64,000 bases of DNA from Nocardioides marmoribigeumensis (GTDB lineage: Bacteria; Actinomycetota; Actinomycetes; Propionibacteriales; Nocardioidaceae): contig NZ_JAVDYG010000001.1 of the NCBI RefSeq assembly GCF_031458325.1, positions 2,108,001 through 2,172,000 on the forward strand, read 5' to 3'. The translations under genes were made by a program, and so were the position numbers. Under the pieces are notes generated by a model. It saw only the letters and a list, made by a program, of their open reading frames with translations. It made no database searches and was not told where the DNA came from. Positions within the stretch are counted from its first letter, which is position 1. Every line of letters begins with the position of its first letter. Shown piece after piece: positions 54,932 through 60,784 of this stretch.

Positions 54932-55022
54932 GGAGGTGTCGCCTAGTCCGGTCTATGGCGCCCGACTGCTAATCGGGTTTGGGGCAACAACCCCATCGAG
55001 GGTTCAAATCCCTCCACCTCCG
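54932..55022 (+). tRNA. tRNA-Ser (anticodon GCU)
   Basis: A 91-nt class II tRNA. The acceptor stem pairs GGAGGTG (54932-54938) with CACCTCC (55015-55021), with a G discriminator at 55022 and CC following, so CCA may be partly encoded. The anticodon stem is CCCGA/TCGGG around CTGCTAA with GCT; a long variable arm GGGG...CCCC and the T arm GAGGG-TTCAAAT-CCCTC are present. It reads AGC/AGU serine codons. Confidence 0.95.
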
Positions 55023-55030
55023 CCGACCTG

Positions 55031-55118: not shown

Positions 55119-55325
55119 CCCGAGACCCCGCGGGACGACGCTGCGGACAAAGGTTCCAGCCGGACGTATCAGGCCCGGCCCCGACCCCCTCCTCGGTCTC
55201 AGGGTGCGACGTCAGAGCGGTCGTCACGCCCGGGCAGCGGAGGGCTCGGTCCCAGGAGGGGAGAGACCGGGCCCCCCGCTCGGCTCTAGGCTCAGCCCAC
55301 CACCGCTCCTACCCGGAGGTCAGTG

Positions 55326-57020
55326 ATGCAGGAGCCTGAGCAGCAGCAGCCCCTCAAGAACCCTCGAGCCCGCCTCACCCCCACGCCGCCGTTCCTGCGG
55401 GACGTCGCGCAGCAGTACCTCAACGTGCGCCTGCTCGACCCCCTCACCGCCTACCAGGTCAGGGGCCAGCACGGTATCAAGCCGACGGCGTTCCTCGCCG
55501 ACTCGCTCCTGGTCCGCGGCCGGGACCGGACGACGATCGCCACGCTGGAGGAGGTCGCCGCCGAGGCCGGCTTCAGCCTCGCGTGGGACGCCCGGGTCGC
55601 CGAGGACCAGGCGCTGCTGGACCGCGCCGAGCTGGCGAAGGACGAGCGCGAGGCGATCGAGGCCGTCTGGGTGCGCCGGGTCCGGCTCGTCCCCGCCGAG
55701 GAGCCGGTGCAGCCGGTCTACAAGCCGATCGACACGTGGCGACTCCTGCAGGCCTACCGCGTGCGCGTGATGGACGACCCGCAGCGCCTCGCGGACGTCG
55801 GCCTGGAGCACCCCGCGTCCGCCGACCCGTTCACCGGGGCGCATCCCTTCACCGGAGCCCACCCCTTCACCGGCGCCCACCCGTTCACCGGGGCGCACCC
55901 CTTCACCGGCGCCCACGGCGTCAGCGGGTCCGCCGGTCTCGACGCCTACGCCTCGCCGGGCTGGGGGGGACGGCAGCCGGTGAGCTGGAACGGGCTCGCG
56001 CCCACCCCGTCGTACGACCTGGACGGCACGGTGCCGCGACCCGTCGTCGCCGTGCTGGACACCCCCATCGGCGAGCACCCGTGGCTGCGCAAGGAGTTCG
56101 TGCGCCACGACGTCGCCGTGCTGGGGGAGCCGATCGGCCACCACGCGGAGACTCCCGCCGAGGAGGAGGCCGAGGAGAGCGGCATGACCGAGTGGATGGT
56201 CGGCGAGCTCGGCCAGGACTCCGGCCACGGCACCTTCATCGCCGGCCTGGTCCGGCAGGCCTGCCCCGAGGCCCTCGTCCTCGACGTCCCGGTGTTCGGC
56301 AACGACGGCGTCGTCGCCGAGTCCGACCTGCTCCGGGCCCTCCAGCTCATGGCCCTGCGCCAGCTGCTCGCCCGGCGCGACGCGCTGCCCGACGAGGTCA
56401 CGGAGCCGGTCGACATCCTCGTGCTCTCGCTCGGCTACTACCACGAGCAGCCGGAGGACGCCGCGTTCGACGCCCTGCTCCGTGGCCCGATCGACCTGCT
56501 CGGGCGCCTCGGCGTCGCCGTCGTGGTCTCGGCCGGCAACGACGCCACCGACCGGCCGATCTATCCCGCCGCGTTCGCCCCGCACACGCCCGCCGGGCTG
56601 ACCGCCCACCCCGGCTGCGTCCCGGTGACCGCGGTCGGCGCGCTCAACCCCGACAGCACGATCGCGCTGTTCAGCAACGACGGCCCGTGGGTCCGGTTCC
56701 GCCGCCCGGGCGCGTCCCTGGTCAGCACGATGCCGACGACGTACGACGCCGCGCTCGAGCCGACCAACGCCCTGGTCAACGCGGACGCCGAGTGGCGGAC
56801 GGGGCTCGACCCCGACGACTTCTCGTGCGGCTTCGGGGTGTGGAGCGGCACGTCGTTCGCGGCGCCCGTCTTCGCCGGTCAGCTGGCCGCCGCACTGGCG
56901 GCCCGCCTGCTCGCCGGCGACACGACCGACCGGGTCGCGCTGATGCGCGAGCTGCTCGACCAGATGCCCGGCGCGCGCGAGAAGCGGCCCCCCGCCATCG
57001 ACCCGGCGGAGGTGGACTGA
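55326..57020 (+). CDS. S8 family serine peptidase (subtilisin-like) with hexapeptide repeats
   Basis: A 564-aa protein with no signal peptide or membrane segment, so it appears cytoplasmic. The catalytic triad is D245 (VVAVLDTPIG), H301 (DSGHGTFIAGLV) and S510 (SGTSFAAPVFAG), with oxyanion Asn N405 (VVSAGND); all intact and in canonical order. Residues 168-197 are five exact copies of PFTGAH between an N-terminal about 165-aa extension and the peptidase domain. The ATG 55326 is preferred over GTG 55323 for its spacing from GGAGG (55315-55319). Next gene starts at the stop (TGATG), so it is coupled to a sigma factor. Confidence 0.9.
   Translation: MQEPEQQQPLKNPRARLTPTPPFLRDVAQQYLNVRLLDPLTAYQVRGQHGIKPTAFLADSLLVRGRDRTTIATLEEVAAEAGFSLAWDARVAEDQALLDRAELAKDEREAIEAVWVRRVRLVPAEEPVQPVYKPIDTWRLLQAYRVRVMDDPQRLADVGLEHPASADPFTGAHPFTGAHPFTGAHPFTGAHPFTGAHGVSGSAGLDAYASPGWGGRQPVSWNGLAPTPSYDLDGTVPRPVVAVLDTPIGEHPWLRKEFVRHDVAVLGEPIGHHAETPAEEEAEESGMTEWMVGELGQDSGHGTFIAGLVRQACPEALVLDVPVFGNDGVVAESDLLRALQLMALRQLLARRDALPDEVTEPVDILVLSLGYYHEQPEDAAFDALLRGPIDLLGRLGVAVVVSAGNDATDRPIYPAAFAPHTPAGLTAHPGCVPVTAVGALNPDSTIALFSNDGPWVRFRRPGASLVSTMPTTYDAALEPTNALVNADAEWRTGLDPDDFSCGFGVWSGTSFAAPVFAGQLAAALAARLLAGDTTDRVALMRELLDQMPGAREKRPPAIDPAEVD
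55827..55916 (+). repeat. 18-bp coding tandem repeat, five copies (PFTGAH)
   Basis: Five 18-base units encode PFTGAH five times in the subtilase gene. Units differ only at third positions (GGGGCGCAT, GGAGCCCAC, GGCGCCCAC), meaning the peptide, not just DNA, is kept. Copy number may vary by slippage. Confidence 0.85.
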
Positions 57021-57682
57021 TGAGCGACACCCCCGGCACCCACGGCACGCACGACACCCACGGCGCCGCCCCGACCCTGGTCACCCGCGCATCGGCCGCC
57101 TTCGCGGCCTACCAGGCCGGCGACCGCTTCGCCTTCGACACCCTCGTCGAGGTCGTCACGCCGCTGATGTGGCGCGTGACCCGCGGCGCCGGGCTCGACC
57201 CGACCACGAGCGAGGACGTCATCCAGGGCGTCTGGCTGGCGCTGCTCCGCTCCGCGGAATCGGTGCGCGACCCGCAGACGATCGTGAAGTGGGTGCTCAC
57301 CTCCACCCGCCGCGAGGCGTGGCGTCTGTCCAAGCGCACGCGCACCGACCAGCAGCGCAGCGGTGCGGTCTTCGGGGTCGACAGCGAGGAGCTGATGCAG
57401 ATCCCGGCCGCCCGCGAGGCCGGCCCGGAGGAGCGGGTGATCGCCGACGACCGCCAGCGGCTGCTGTGGGGCCACGTGCAGACGCTGCCCGAGCGCTGCC
57501 GCCAGCTGCTCGGGGTCATCGCGTACGCCGACAAGCCGGACTACGCCTCGCTCGCCGAGGCGCTCGGCATGCCCGTCGGCTCCATCGGTCCCACCCGGGG
57601 CCGGTGCCTGGCCAAGCTGCGCGACGCGCTGGCCAAGGACTCGGCCTGGGCCGGTCACCAGCAGGAAGGACTCACCCCATGA
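57020..57682 (+). CDS. Sigma-70 (ECF-like) RNA polymerase sigma factor
   Basis: A 220-aa sigma factor of the ECF size. Region 2 is about residues 25-95 (AFDTLVEVVTPLMWRVTR; EDVIQGVWLALLRSAE; WVLTSTRREAWRLSKR) and region 4 about 150-205 (LPERCRQLLGVIAYADKPDYASLAEALGMPVGSIGPTRGRCLAKLR). The Thr/Gly/His-rich N-terminal tail is unusual. The ATG overlaps the subtilase stop (TGATG); its stop overlaps the next ATG (ATGA). It would direct RNA polymerase to unknown promoters, maybe including its own. Confidence 0.9.
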   Translation: MSDTPGTHGTHDTHGAAPTLVTRASAAFAAYQAGDRFAFDTLVEVVTPLMWRVTRGAGLDPTTSEDVIQGVWLALLRSAESVRDPQTIVKWVLTSTRREAWRLSKRTRTDQQRSGAVFGVDSEELMQIPAAREAGPEERVIADDRQRLLWGHVQTLPERCRQLLGVIAYADKPDYASLAEALGMPVGSIGPTRGRCLAKLRDALAKDSAWAGHQQEGLTP

Positions 57683-58197
57683 CCGACGACGACTTCCCGA
57701 CCGGCGTGAGCGCCGACGTCGAGGCCCTCGCCACCGCTGCGATGGACCGCGAGGACGAGGCGCTGCTGCGCGAGCTCGACCTGCTGCTCCGCCAGGCCGA
57801 CCCGATGCCCGCCGACCTGGTCGACCGGGTGCAGTTCGCCCTCGCGCTCGACGAGCTGCACGCGGAGGTCGCGGAGATGACCCGCCTGTCCCTCGACGCC
57901 CTGGCAGTCCGCGCCGACCCGACCGTGGAGGCGGCGACGACGTCGCTGACCTTCAAGACCGACGCGTTCACCGCGATGGTCACCGTGACCCGCACCGGCG
58001 ACGACGCGTTCCGCCTCGACGGCTGGGTCGCCCCTCCGGTGCCGCTGCGCGTGGTCGTCCGGATGCAGGAGGGGGTGCGCGAGGTGGAGAGCGACGACTC
58101 GGGCCGCTTCGTCGTGGACGGCCTGCCCGGCGGCTTCGCCCAGCTGGTCTTCCACCACGACGGCGGGGCCGTCGTCACGCCGATGTTCGAGCTCTGA
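57679..58197 (+). CDS. Putative sigma partner (anti-sigma-like) protein, unknown
   Basis: A 172-aa protein directly coupled to the sigma gene (ATGA). Residues about 10-75 are helical and acidic (MDREDEALLRELDLLLRQAD, VQFALALDELHAEVAEM) like an anti-sigma N-domain, but no HxxxCxxC zinc motif exists. Residues about 90-172 form a beta-rich domain (LTFKTDAFTAMVTVTRTG; GRFVVDGLPGGFAQLVFHHDGG), similar to carboxypeptidase regulatory-like domains. No membrane segment, so it is cytoplasmic. Position between sigma factor and a protease suggests it binds one or both. Confidence 0.6.
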   Translation: MTDDDFPTGVSADVEALATAAMDREDEALLRELDLLLRQADPMPADLVDRVQFALALDELHAEVAEMTRLSLDALAVRADPTVEAATTSLTFKTDAFTAMVTVTRTGDDAFRLDGWVAPPVPLRVVVRMQEGVREVESDDSGRFVVDGLPGGFAQLVFHHDGGAVVTPMFEL

Positions 58198-58213
58198 GCC
58201 GCGGGACCGCCCC

Positions 58214-60784
58214 GTGTCGATGCCCACCGTGGACACCACCCCGGACGGCCTGCGCGCCGAGCTGCTCGCCGCCCGCGAGGAGGTCCACCTCGGCCGCCCG
58301 GCGCAGGCCCAGGAGCGCTACCGCTCGGTCGCGGGCGCCCTGGGCGAGGCCGACGACGGCTCCCGGGTCTTCGCCGAGCTGCGGGCCCGGGTCCTCCTCG
58401 GTCTCGCGATCGCCGACTTCGAGGTGACCGGGGACCTCGCCGCCTCGATGCGCCTGATGGACCAGGCGTCCGCGGAGCGGCAGCGCGCCGACTGCGCCGA
58501 GCTGGTCGCCCCGATCGCGGGGGCGCGGGGGCTGCTGCTGCTCAGGTGCGGCGACGTCGACCGGGCGCTGGACGCGCTGGACCAGGGCGTCGCGCTCCTC
58601 GACGCGGCGCCGGTGGGCGACCAGCTCTCGCTGCTGCTCAATCGCGGCACCCTTCACCTCGAGCGCGGGGCGCTCGACGCCGCCGCGGCCGACTTCGCCG
58701 AGTGCCTCGAGCGGGCCGGGGCGGCCGGGGACCGGATGCACGCCTGGAAGGCCCGGCACAACCTCGGCTACGTCGAGTTCCTCCGCGGGCAGCTGCCCCG
58801 CGCCCTCGCGGTGATGCGCCAGGCCGAGACCGACAACCCGGGAGCACCCTCGCCGATCGCCCTGCTCGACCAGGCCCGCGTGCTCCGGGAGGCCGGCCTG
58901 ACCGACGCGGCCGCCGACCTGCTCGAGCGGGTGGCCGGCATGTTCGAGGAGGCCGGCCTGGAGCAGGACCTCGCCGAGACCGAGCTCGCGCTGGCCGACT
59001 GCGCCCTGCTGGACCCCGACACCGTCGAGGAGTCCGTCGACCTGGCCTACTCCGCGCTCGCCCGGCTGACCCGTCGCGGCAACACCCGCTGGCAGCGCCG
59101 GGCCGAGCTCCAGGTGCTCCGCGCCGAGCGGCAGCGCGTCGAGCCGTCCGGGAGCACGGCGCTCGCCGACCTCGCCGACCGGGCCGACCACCTCGCCGCC
59201 ACCTGCGCGGGGGAGCACCGCAGCGATCTGGCCCACCAGGCCGGCCTCCTCGCCGCGGAGTGCCGGCTGCGCAGCGGGCGGTCCGCGGGCCTCCCGCCCG
59301 TGCGGCAGGGCGACGACGTCACCACCCGCCTGCACACCCGCGAGGTGCGGGCGCTCGCGCTCGACGCGGCCGGGCAGCCGCGCCGTGCGCTCGGGGAGGT
59401 ACGCCGGGGCCTCGCCGAGCTCGGCGACTACCAGCGGTCCTTCGGCTCGCTCGACCTCCGCACCGCCAGCGCCGTGCACGGGGCGGCCCTGGCCCGGCTG
59501 GGGCTCGACGTGGCGCTGCGCAGCGGGTCGGCCGCCGCGGTGTTCGACGTGGTCGAGCGGGGGCGGGCCGTCTCGACCCGCCTGCCACCGGTGCGCCCGC
59601 CCGAGGACCTCGGCACCGCCGCCCTGCTCGCCGAGCTCCGCCGGGCCGAGGAGGAGCTGCGGGCCCACGAGGGCGACGCGGCAGACGGCGAGTCCGCGCA
59701 CCTGCGCCGCCGCGTCGGCCACCTCCAGCGCGAGGTCCGTGAGCTGGCCTGGACCCAGGGCGACCACGACGACGGCGCCGAGCCCGAGGCGGCCGCCGAG
59801 GCCCCCCGGGCCGGCGCGGTCCGGTCGACGCTCCGCGAGGCGGGGCAGACACTGGTCAGCTTCGCCCGCGACCGGGGCGAGTGGGTCGCGGTCGTGCTGG
59901 GCCGTCGTACCCCCTCGGTGCACCGGCTCGCCCGCATCGACGTGGTCGCCTCCCGGGTCAGCCGGCTGCGCGCCGACCTCGACGCGCTCGCCATGCCGTT
60001 CCTGCCGGACGGGATCCGCGACGTCGTCCGGGCCTCCGCCGAGGGCGTGCTGGCCGAGCTGGAGGCGACGCTGCTGACGCCGCTGGGGGTCGACGGACCG
60101 CTGGTGGTCTCCTGCTCGGGCGACCTCTGCTTCCTCCCGTGGGGCCTGCTCCCCTCGCGGCGCGGGCTGCCGACGGTCACCGCGCCGAGCGCCGCGGCGT
60201 GGCTGCGGGGCCACGCCGCGCGGGCGCAGGGGCGTGGCGACCGGGTCGTCGCGCTGGCCGGCCCCGACCTGCGCCAGGCCGCCCCCGAGGCGCGGGCCGT
60301 GGCCCAGACCTGGCCCGGGGCGACGCTGCTGGACGGACCGGCCGCGACCGGCGAGGCGATGCGCGAGGCGTTGGCCGGCGCCGACCTCGTCCACGTGGCC
60401 GCCCACGGGACCCACCGCCAGGACAACCCGCTGTTCTCCAGCGTGCGTCTGGCCGACGGGGCGCTCTACGCCTACGAGCTCGGGCGCAGCGGTGAGGGCT
60501 TCGCGGGCTGCGTGGTGCTCTCGGCCTGCGACGCCGGCCTGGCGACGTTCCGCCCCGGTGACGAGTCGCTCGGCCTCTCGCAGGTGCTGCTCCAGCTGGG
60601 GGCCCAGGTGGTGGTGGCCGCGGTGGCCCGGGTCAACGACGAGGCCTCGGCCACGCTGATGACCCGGCTGCACGCCGAGGTGGCCGCCGGGACCGACGTG
60701 GCGGGCGCGCTGGCGGCGGTCCAGCACGATCTTGCAGAGGACGGCACGCTCGTCGCCCTCGCAGCGGTGGGCGGGACGTGGTGA
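58214..60784 (+). CDS. TPR-CHAT (caspase-like) peptidase
   Basis: An 856-aa protein. Residues about 15-450 are a run of TPR-like helical repeats; about 600-856 is a CHAT domain with the catalytic dyad H731 (VHVAAHGTH) and C772 (VLSACDAG), so the protease should be active. Family features ESLGLSQVLLQLGAQVVVAA are present. No signal peptide. CHAT domains cleave protein partners in stress and defence responses; here the small 172-aa protein and the subtilase upstream are candidate partners. GTG 58214 is 16 bases after the preceding stop; ATG 58220 is an alternative start. Confidence 0.88.
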   Translation: MSMPTVDTTPDGLRAELLAAREEVHLGRPAQAQERYRSVAGALGEADDGSRVFAELRARVLLGLAIADFEVTGDLAASMRLMDQASAERQRADCAELVAPIAGARGLLLLRCGDVDRALDALDQGVALLDAAPVGDQLSLLLNRGTLHLERGALDAAAADFAECLERAGAAGDRMHAWKARHNLGYVEFLRGQLPRALAVMRQAETDNPGAPSPIALLDQARVLREAGLTDAAADLLERVAGMFEEAGLEQDLAETELALADCALLDPDTVEESVDLAYSALARLTRRGNTRWQRRAELQVLRAERQRVEPSGSTALADLADRADHLAATCAGEHRSDLAHQAGLLAAECRLRSGRSAGLPPVRQGDDVTTRLHTREVRALALDAAGQPRRALGEVRRGLAELGDYQRSFGSLDLRTASAVHGAALARLGLDVALRSGSAAAVFDVVERGRAVSTRLPPVRPPEDLGTAALLAELRRAEEELRAHEGDAADGESAHLRRRVGHLQREVRELAWTQGDHDDGAEPEAAAEAPRAGAVRSTLREAGQTLVSFARDRGEWVAVVLGRRTPSVHRLARIDVVASRVSRLRADLDALAMPFLPDGIRDVVRASAEGVLAELEATLLTPLGVDGPLVVSCSGDLCFLPWGLLPSRRGLPTVTAPSAAAWLRGHAARAQGRGDRVVALAGPDLRQAAPEARAVAQTWPGATLLDGPAATGEAMREALAGADLVHVAAHGTHRQDNPLFSSVRLADGALYAYELGRSGEGFAGCVVLSACDAGLATFRPGDESLGLSQVLLQLGAQVVVAAVARVNDEASATLMTRLHAEVAAGTDVAGALAAVQHDLAEDGTLVALAAVGGTW

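Follow-up and report, generated by a model that had tools for sequence, protein, structure and literature searches.

Four consecutive genes on the forward strand of the window (the whole 64,000-nucleotide stretch of Nocardioides marmoribigeumensis DNA analysed here) encode an S8 subtilase, an ECF-type sigma factor, a 172-residue protein called P172 and a TPR-CHAT protease. The best explanation of this cassette, which is given a probability of about one half, is a caspase-like sigma switch that works without CRISPR, in which the CHAT protease would dock on peptide arrays, cut P172 and so free the sigma factor. What is new here is an arginine (R78) in the linker of P172, a conserved promoter, and tandem peptide arrays found widely in the subtilases of this type, of which the PFTGAH repeat of the window is one case.

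The four-gene operon

The S8 gene (564 aa; 55326-57020, +) begins at the ATG at 55326, with an alternative GTG at 55323, and its product matches PF00082 (4e-15). Next on the same strand come the genes for the sigma factor (220 aa; 57020-57682, +), for P172 (172 aa; 57679-58197, +), the proposed anti-sigma factor and CHAT substrate, and for the TPR-CHAT protease (856 aa; 58214-60784, +), which has a GTG start and matches PF12770 (6e-28). The gene coordinates and the junctions reported in an earlier note on this DNA (TGATG, ATGA and a gap of 16 bp) were reproduced, and the four genes form a single tight operon. The catalytic residues that the note had called intact are indeed so, and they are also invariant among relatives: D245, H301 and S510 of the subtilase, along with N405, in 40/40 aligned sequences, and H731 (60404-60406, +) and C772 (60527-60529, +) of the CHAT protease in 39/39. 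Its view that all four products look cytoplasmic has light support for the subtilase, in which a crude hydropathy test detected no export signal; for the sigma factor, P172 and CHAT it was judged by eye only. Its assignment of an ECF-like sigma factor holds as well, with a match over cut-off to TIGR02937 (sigma70-ECF, 7e-13), a match to Pfam Sigma70_r2 slightly below the cut-off of that family, and a conserved GSIGPTRxRCL at the end of region 4 in the family alignment.

The CHAT protein of the cassette is the sole CHAT match in the 4.44-Mb source genome. No CRISPR-like spaced repeats are present in window 40000-64000, where two direct-repeat families were found, both within the S8 gene, and no other. 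A tRNA-Ser (gct) gene lies directly upstream of the cassette, at window 54932-55024.

Conservation and linkage

Comparison across genomes shows that the four families behave as one evolutionary, and presumably functional, unit. Within a phylum sample of 396 Actinomycetota genomes, CHAT being counted at E <= 1e-30, P172 occurs in 52 and CHAT in 49; both are found in 48 genomes, P172 only in 4, CHAT only in 1 and neither in 343 (Fisher 6e-56, uncorrected for kinship). In G393, one of the P172-only genomes (the others are G344, G457 and G461), the same contig also bears a fragment of CHAT, and the CHAT-only genome, G085, is that with the weakest CHAT match (4.8e-31). Around phylum P172 matches, 40 loci have the sigma gene directly upstream in 37 cases and all four genes in 29. 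In an order sample of 77 genomes, searched with differing default cut-offs so that the counts include generic relatives, sigma was found in 35 (E <= 1e-20), P172 in 24, CHAT in 40 and S8 in 36. All four genes stand together in 36/40 fetched order loci, while the other 4 come from two genomes, G012 and G042, that keep sigma-P172 apart from S8-CHAT. The possibility, raised along with the proposal of a synteny check, that the four genes rarely co-occur is not borne out by the overlap of P172 and CHAT in the phylum sample and by the complete loci of the order sample.

A third set, the named loci, was drawn from at least 587 sigma relatives; it comprises the 80 best, which were selected for resemblance to the sigma factor of the window. 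P172 is present in 79 of these best 80, CHAT in 73, S8 in 61 and all four genes in 59; among the 52 that extend 8 kb to both sides, the counts are 52 for P172, 50 for CHAT and 42 for S8. P172 follows sigma directly and on the same strand in 79/80 (the other locus is cut by a contig end), as it does in 38/38 order loci that have sigma, while the order and strand of the remaining genes vary among the order loci. Where a sigma-P172 pair is solitary, CHAT often lies elsewhere in the genome, with S8 adjoining in 4/5 cases (L257-L260, not L261). The core of the system is sigma-P172-CHAT, and S8 is frequent but dispensable, since a nearby S8 is absent from 10 of the 52 long named loci and since, for 10 S8-less Cellulomonas loci, 9 genomes are without a cassette-type S8 (best match 2.8e-42 or none). 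One of those 10 Cellulomonas genomes has a second, complete cassette.

P172 and its linker arginine

P172 matches no family over cut-off, the best being Pfam CarboxypepD_reg at 0.0097. As the earlier note had stated, it has no zinc anti-sigma motif: Cys is absent from the sequence, and with it any HxxxCxxC. Family searches found no peptidase domain in P172; Ig-like fold matches were obtained instead. In the AF2 model (mean pLDDT 86.9), helices at residues 12-60 form the N-terminal part and an Ig-like beta-sandwich at about 86-166 the C-terminal part, and residues 71-80, which join the two domains, have a mean pLDDT of 64. Foldseek returned Ig/FnIII/CBM-like matches, none at E <= 0.001. The label 'carboxypeptidase' given in the literature to the P172-type neighbour of such sigma factors probably reflects a regulatory-like domain, not an enzyme.

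Alignment column 78, which in the window is Arg78 (57910-57912, +), lies in the interdomain linker and is Arg in 161/162 aligned rows (161 distinct), the remaining row being gapped. Entropy at the flanking positions 68-77 and 79-88 ranges from 1.9 to 3.4 bits, exceeding 2 bits in most neighbouring columns, and the residue that follows R78 (P1') is mostly G, S, A or T. Clan-CD proteases prefer Arg, and an arginine fixed in a loose linker beside such a protease is the strongest hint of a cleavage site that the sequences have offered; R78 is thus the likely site of a cut by CHAT. The arginine is present in 30/31 P172 rows whose loci show no S8 over the length fetched, a result that favours CHAT over S8 as the cutter. 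The exception is also the sole gapped copy, L124, and it comes from G457, a genome without a CHAT match; this coincidence (n=1) is only suggestive. Because P172 directly follows sigma on the same strand and keeps the linker Arg, the comparison supports it as the best candidate for both the sigma partner and the protease substrate.

The S8 subtilase and its peptide arrays

In the AF2 model of the subtilase (mean pLDDT 88.5), the N-domain and the catalytic domain are predicted with confidence, and the array between them is disordered. The N-domain, residues 25-167 (55398-55826, +), resembles a prosubtilisin prodomain, with AF2 blocks mostly >90, and ends near H162, a His found at this position in 91/95 aligned S8s. 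Foldseek aligns the protein with prosubtilisins (ProN-Tk-SP, pro-subtilisin E) over about 500 columns, although loosely, at an rmsd of about 6-9. The modelled layout agrees with that of a prosubtilisin-type zymogen, in which an N-terminal prodomain precedes the catalytic domain. The tandem array, PFTGAH x5 at residues 168-197 (55827-55916, +), has pLDDT <50 for most of 170-198; among the NCBIfam families, HxsA4, a His-Xaa-Ser repeat protein, is weakly matched by this stretch (0.03). In the segment that leads from the array to the catalytic domain, the alignment marks Arg216 of a G-G-R sequence (55971-55973, +) as a second candidate CHAT site. G-G-R is not universal, Arg occupying position 216 in 63/95 aligned S8s, and a loose pattern, G-R within 45 aa after the array, is seen in 62/73 array-bearing S8s.

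The notion that the PFTGAH stretch is peculiar to the window was rejected, as arrays with other units occur in many relatives' S8s. Tandem arrays lie between the N-domain and the catalytic domain in 73/121 S8s (>=400 aa) and comprise 55 distinct units, 6 residues long in 56 arrays, 7 in 14, 5 in one and 8 in one, in about 3 to 11 copies; a single period-4 array, in L053, is low complexity. They are found in 50/56 S8s of the named loci (the 80 best out of at least 587), in 13/26 of the phylum set and in 9/38 of the order set, where one of the nine is low-complexity, in addition to the window. The Streptomyces-like and Kribbella-like S8s examined have none. Within the first 340 aa, comparable arrays occur in 2/602 neighbour ORFs and in 0/149 CHATs.

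Codon comparison of 77 arrays, detected more loosely than the 73 just counted, gave 636 synonymous (pS 0.447) versus 27 nonsynonymous (pN 0.0064) differences between adjacent copies; pN is lowered by the use of peptide identity for detection, which does not, however, explain a pS of 0.45. Neighbouring copies of the PFTGAH array in the window differ at 11 synonymous and 0 nonsynonymous positions. These comparisons show an array peptide that is conserved within a lineage and variable between lineages. The similarity of units among loci was examined by a Mantel-type partial correlation (47 dereplicated loci, 500 permutations). With sigma and S8 controlled, it tracks CHAT (partial r 0.386, 0/500 permutations), where kinship and the length of CHAT, the longer protein, can inflate the value, and P172 (partial r 0.283, 0/500); its correlation with the S8 catalytic domain is 0.057 (60/500) and with the S8 N-domain -0.014.

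The earlier note had suggested that the PFTGAH region might be where the subtilase is cut. The importance of the region has been upheld, its role as a cut site has not: a recognition array is more likely, because the unit changes between lineages. The idea that the array offers multiple copies of an Arg cleavage site was likewise rejected, most units being without Arg. A sliding-window scan of CHAT against unit similarity, made in search of an array reader, found no segment that stood out. Within the source genome PFTGAH occurs only in the 5 copies of the subtilase and in no other protein, and among called genes no S8 unit has a 5-residue match to the P172, sigma or CHAT of its own locus. No publication on such S8 arrays was found among the papers listed for CHAT, subtilase and repeats together, a literature that excluded most subscription papers.

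Two loci, L111 and L135, have tandem P172-S8-CHAT modules with one sigma common to both modules; the two S8 arrays of each locus have different units, PFTSGG beside MYDGH or LYDGH. An MscS-type gene, considered as a possible regulon member, adjoins P172 in these two loci only, and lies ~5 kb away in Streptomyces-like loci.

A trypsin/NAL1-like protease

Beside 17 loci there is a trypsin-like protease, whose matches to NAL1 and Trypsin are weak and below cut-off. In Cellulomonas this NAL1-like protease stands where S8 is missing, and it carries PFTE (9 loci) or PFTQ (1 locus) arrays. A sigma-type promoter precedes it in 13/17 loci. In Knoellia sinensis the NAL1-like protease (L241:4484-6028, -) lies under a sigma-type promoter and has a tail of GWGDGI x4, and GWGDGI is also the unit of the S8 array in that locus; of the 4 loci in which an S8 array and a NAL1-like protease occur side by side, 3 have differing units. 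A search of the source genome, run without a positive control, gave no NAL1-like match. Long PFTE arrays are present in L195, L211, L226, L230, L240, L251 and other Cellulomonas loci, in which the protease is divergent trypsin-like, and an internal PHYQ repeat array occurs in a NAL1-like protein (L141:8832-10406, -) of a locus without S8.

Promoter and predicted regulon

A predicted promoter for the sigma factor, GTATCA-N16-CCTCCT (55166-55193, +), lies 132 bases before the S8 ATG and corresponds to a consensus, GTATCW-N15/16-NCTCCT, that is conserved among cassettes. The dyad GTATC-N17-CTCC is found in 44/153 cassette upstreams (not dereplicated) versus <=11 for any dyad in 5 shuffles, and a looser match, a figure without shuffle control, in 101/153. 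Comparison of these upstream sequences shows that the cassette carries what appears to be its own conserved promoter, which would imply autoregulation and a regulon. The source genome has 14 loose sites versus 3 in the backward control, and 10 strict sites versus 2. At family level, 26 strict sites (control 6) fall in 10 genomes that have the system and 1 (control 4) in 14 genomes that lack it. Strict sites number 6 in G001, 9 in G053, 8 in G012 and 3 in G042 (controls 0, 0, 4 and 0) and 7 in G022 versus 5 in its control; in Kribbella-like genomes they are not above the backward control.

Of the 9 strict non-cassette targets in the source genome, 5 have a crude export signal, versus 255/966 background ORFs taken from a rough gene caller. 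Other strict targets there include an alpha/beta hydrolase, a CoxG-like protein and a PLP decarboxylase, and the targets in relatives include a DyP peroxidase, a tyrosinase and a homologous pair of exported proteins in G001 and G053. In G053, three homologous Ig-like proteins (L333 and L335) each have a sigma-type site upstream.

Proposed mechanism and alternatives

In the proposed switch, P172 would hold sigma inactive through its N-terminal helices. On a cue, TPR-CHAT would turn active and bind its clients, and its cut of P172 after R78 would free sigma, which would then boost transcription both of the cassette itself, a positive feedback, and of a regulon in which exported proteins are frequent. 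The array, specific to each lineage, may serve as a docking tag through which TPR-CHAT recruits the S8 zymogen or, where S8 is absent, the trypsin/NAL1-like protease; a cut near the G-G-R that follows the array would take off the prodomain and turn S8 on, giving a two-protease cascade. A more tentative extension, for which belief is well short of even, holds that the arrays constitute an intracellular address code by which client proteases (S8 and NAL1-like) are enrolled to their cognate TPR-CHAT caspase; the differing codes of paralogous modules in one genome, as in L111 and L135, would keep their cascades apart.

The array could instead belong to the subtilase's own chemistry, as a tethered substrate or pseudo-substrate that threads the cleft and either holds the subtilase in a latent state or undergoes cleavage in cis, with S8, not CHAT, being the main protease that acts on P172 or sigma. 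The position of the array, after the prodomain-like N-domain and before the catalytic domain, would suit this role, as would the many units that read x-x-[PG]-aromatic, a pattern that the classical subtilisin P4-P1 resembles. Such a role is nevertheless unlikely, given that, with sigma controlled for, unit similarity is untied to the catalytic domain of S8, that Cellulomonas NAL1-like proteases bear PFTE or PFTQ arrays though 9/10 of the genomes have no cassette-type S8, and that R78 persists in S8-less loci. It is also improbable that sigma itself is what the proteases degrade, no anti-sigma factor being involved and P172 serving as an accessory or adaptor. That is the mechanism stated for ECF54 in the available part of PMC8999054, and the extra P172 copies of L111 and L135, which adjoin S8-CHAT and not sigma, would fit it; against it stand the constancy of P172 as the sigma neighbour in the named loci (the 80 best out of at least 587), its invariant linker Arg, and its lack of resemblance to carboxypeptidases or other peptidases.

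The view of the arrays as functionless products of neutral slippage is hardly credible. Slippage does generate short tandem repeats, and the copy number varies, but the excess of synonymous over nonsynonymous differences between adjacent copies and the near absence of arrays from neighbour ORFs and CHATs both speak against it. A defence device, in which TPR-CHAT would sense phage or damage and S8 or the NAL1-like protease would kill or arrest the cell, the role of sigma being secondary, is suggested by the coupling of CHAT to sigma in type III-E CRISPR (PMC10028731, available part) and by the grouping of ECF sigma factors, TPR proteins and caspase-type peptidases in predicted immunity operons (PMC8195603, available part). 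It is nonetheless very unlikely: PADLOC gave no strong defence-family match, the matches of the four proteins being weak (best BovA, 1.4e-4), no spaced repeats lie near, mobile or viral settings amount to one weak viral-contig locus and one partial plasmid-record match, and the predicted regulon leans to exported proteins and enzymes. Of the interpretation first offered for this DNA, the functional unit and the candidacy of P172 as substrate are supported, and the phage or damage input is supported by nothing that was found.

Relation to known systems

The primary papers on the ECF54 sigma group are reportedly Casas-Pastor 2021 and Huang 2015. As described in the available part of PMC8999054, ECF54 occurs mainly in Actinobacteria, has conserved subtilase, CHAT and 'carboxypeptidase' neighbours, and is proposed to be under proteolytic control without an anti-sigma factor; the association of S8, CHAT and a carboxypeptidase(-like) protein with a sigma factor, seen also around the present cassette, is therefore already partly in print. 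The cassette differs in that its 'carboxypeptidase' is read here as a non-enzymatic two-domain protein, P172, which has an invariant Arg in its linker and is a candidate anti-sigma factor, and the S8 arrays, promoter and regulon are absent from the ECF54 description in that part of PMC8999054. No Geodermatophilus is among the named loci (the 80 best out of at least 587 sigma relatives); the ECF54 model is SFT86700.1.

A structure of Csx30 is present in the PDB, and a P172 profile searched against the PDB gave 6 sequences at E <= 10, none of them named Csx30. The type III-E Craspase (Csx29-Csx30-CASP-sigma), to which the earlier note had likened the cassette, has in common with it a TPR-CHAT protease, a two-domain sigma inhibitor, an ECF sigma factor and autoregulation, and its Csx29 cleaves Csx30 at 427-429, where no residue is essential (PMC10028731, available part). 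The logic of the analogy is fair, but the cassette CHAT scores 22.1 bits against the Csx29 model, whose cut-off is 300. In addition, the cassette has no CRISPR-like repeats nearby, and it possesses an array-bearing S8 zymogen and, where the cut is proposed, an Arg that is invariant. Release of sigma by cutting of an anti-sigma factor, and a protease cascade driven by CHAT, are known from CalpL-CalpT-CalpS and SAVED-CHAT (PMC11229360, available part), but no cyclic-nucleotide sensor domain was matched in the four cassette proteins. Operons with TRADD-N/EACC2 and a caspase-type peptidase likewise join such a peptidase with TPR and an ECF sigma factor (PMC8195603, available part, with PMC7159879, also available in part, as related literature); neither a TRADD-N nor an EACC domain was matched in the cassette.

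If the proposed switch is correct, caspase-like control of transcription in bacteria would be a widespread chromosomal mode in Actinomycetota and not a peculiarity of CRISPR systems, the presence of P172 in 52/396 sampled genomes being a gauge of its spread. A remark in the sigma literature would then become a specific cascade, with R78, one promoter and one tag as handles. The arrays raise the question of why a peptide is kept exact in up to about 11 copies, yet replaced between lineages.

Other genes at the loci

At L104:8013-11692 (-), CHAT is split over three open segments, probably because the gene is broken or the assembly contains errors. A protein of 727-735 aa, assigned to no family, is encoded just after CHAT in L039, L227 and L235 and has its own sigma-type promoter; in L046 and L048 a 105-aa protein follows CHAT in its place.
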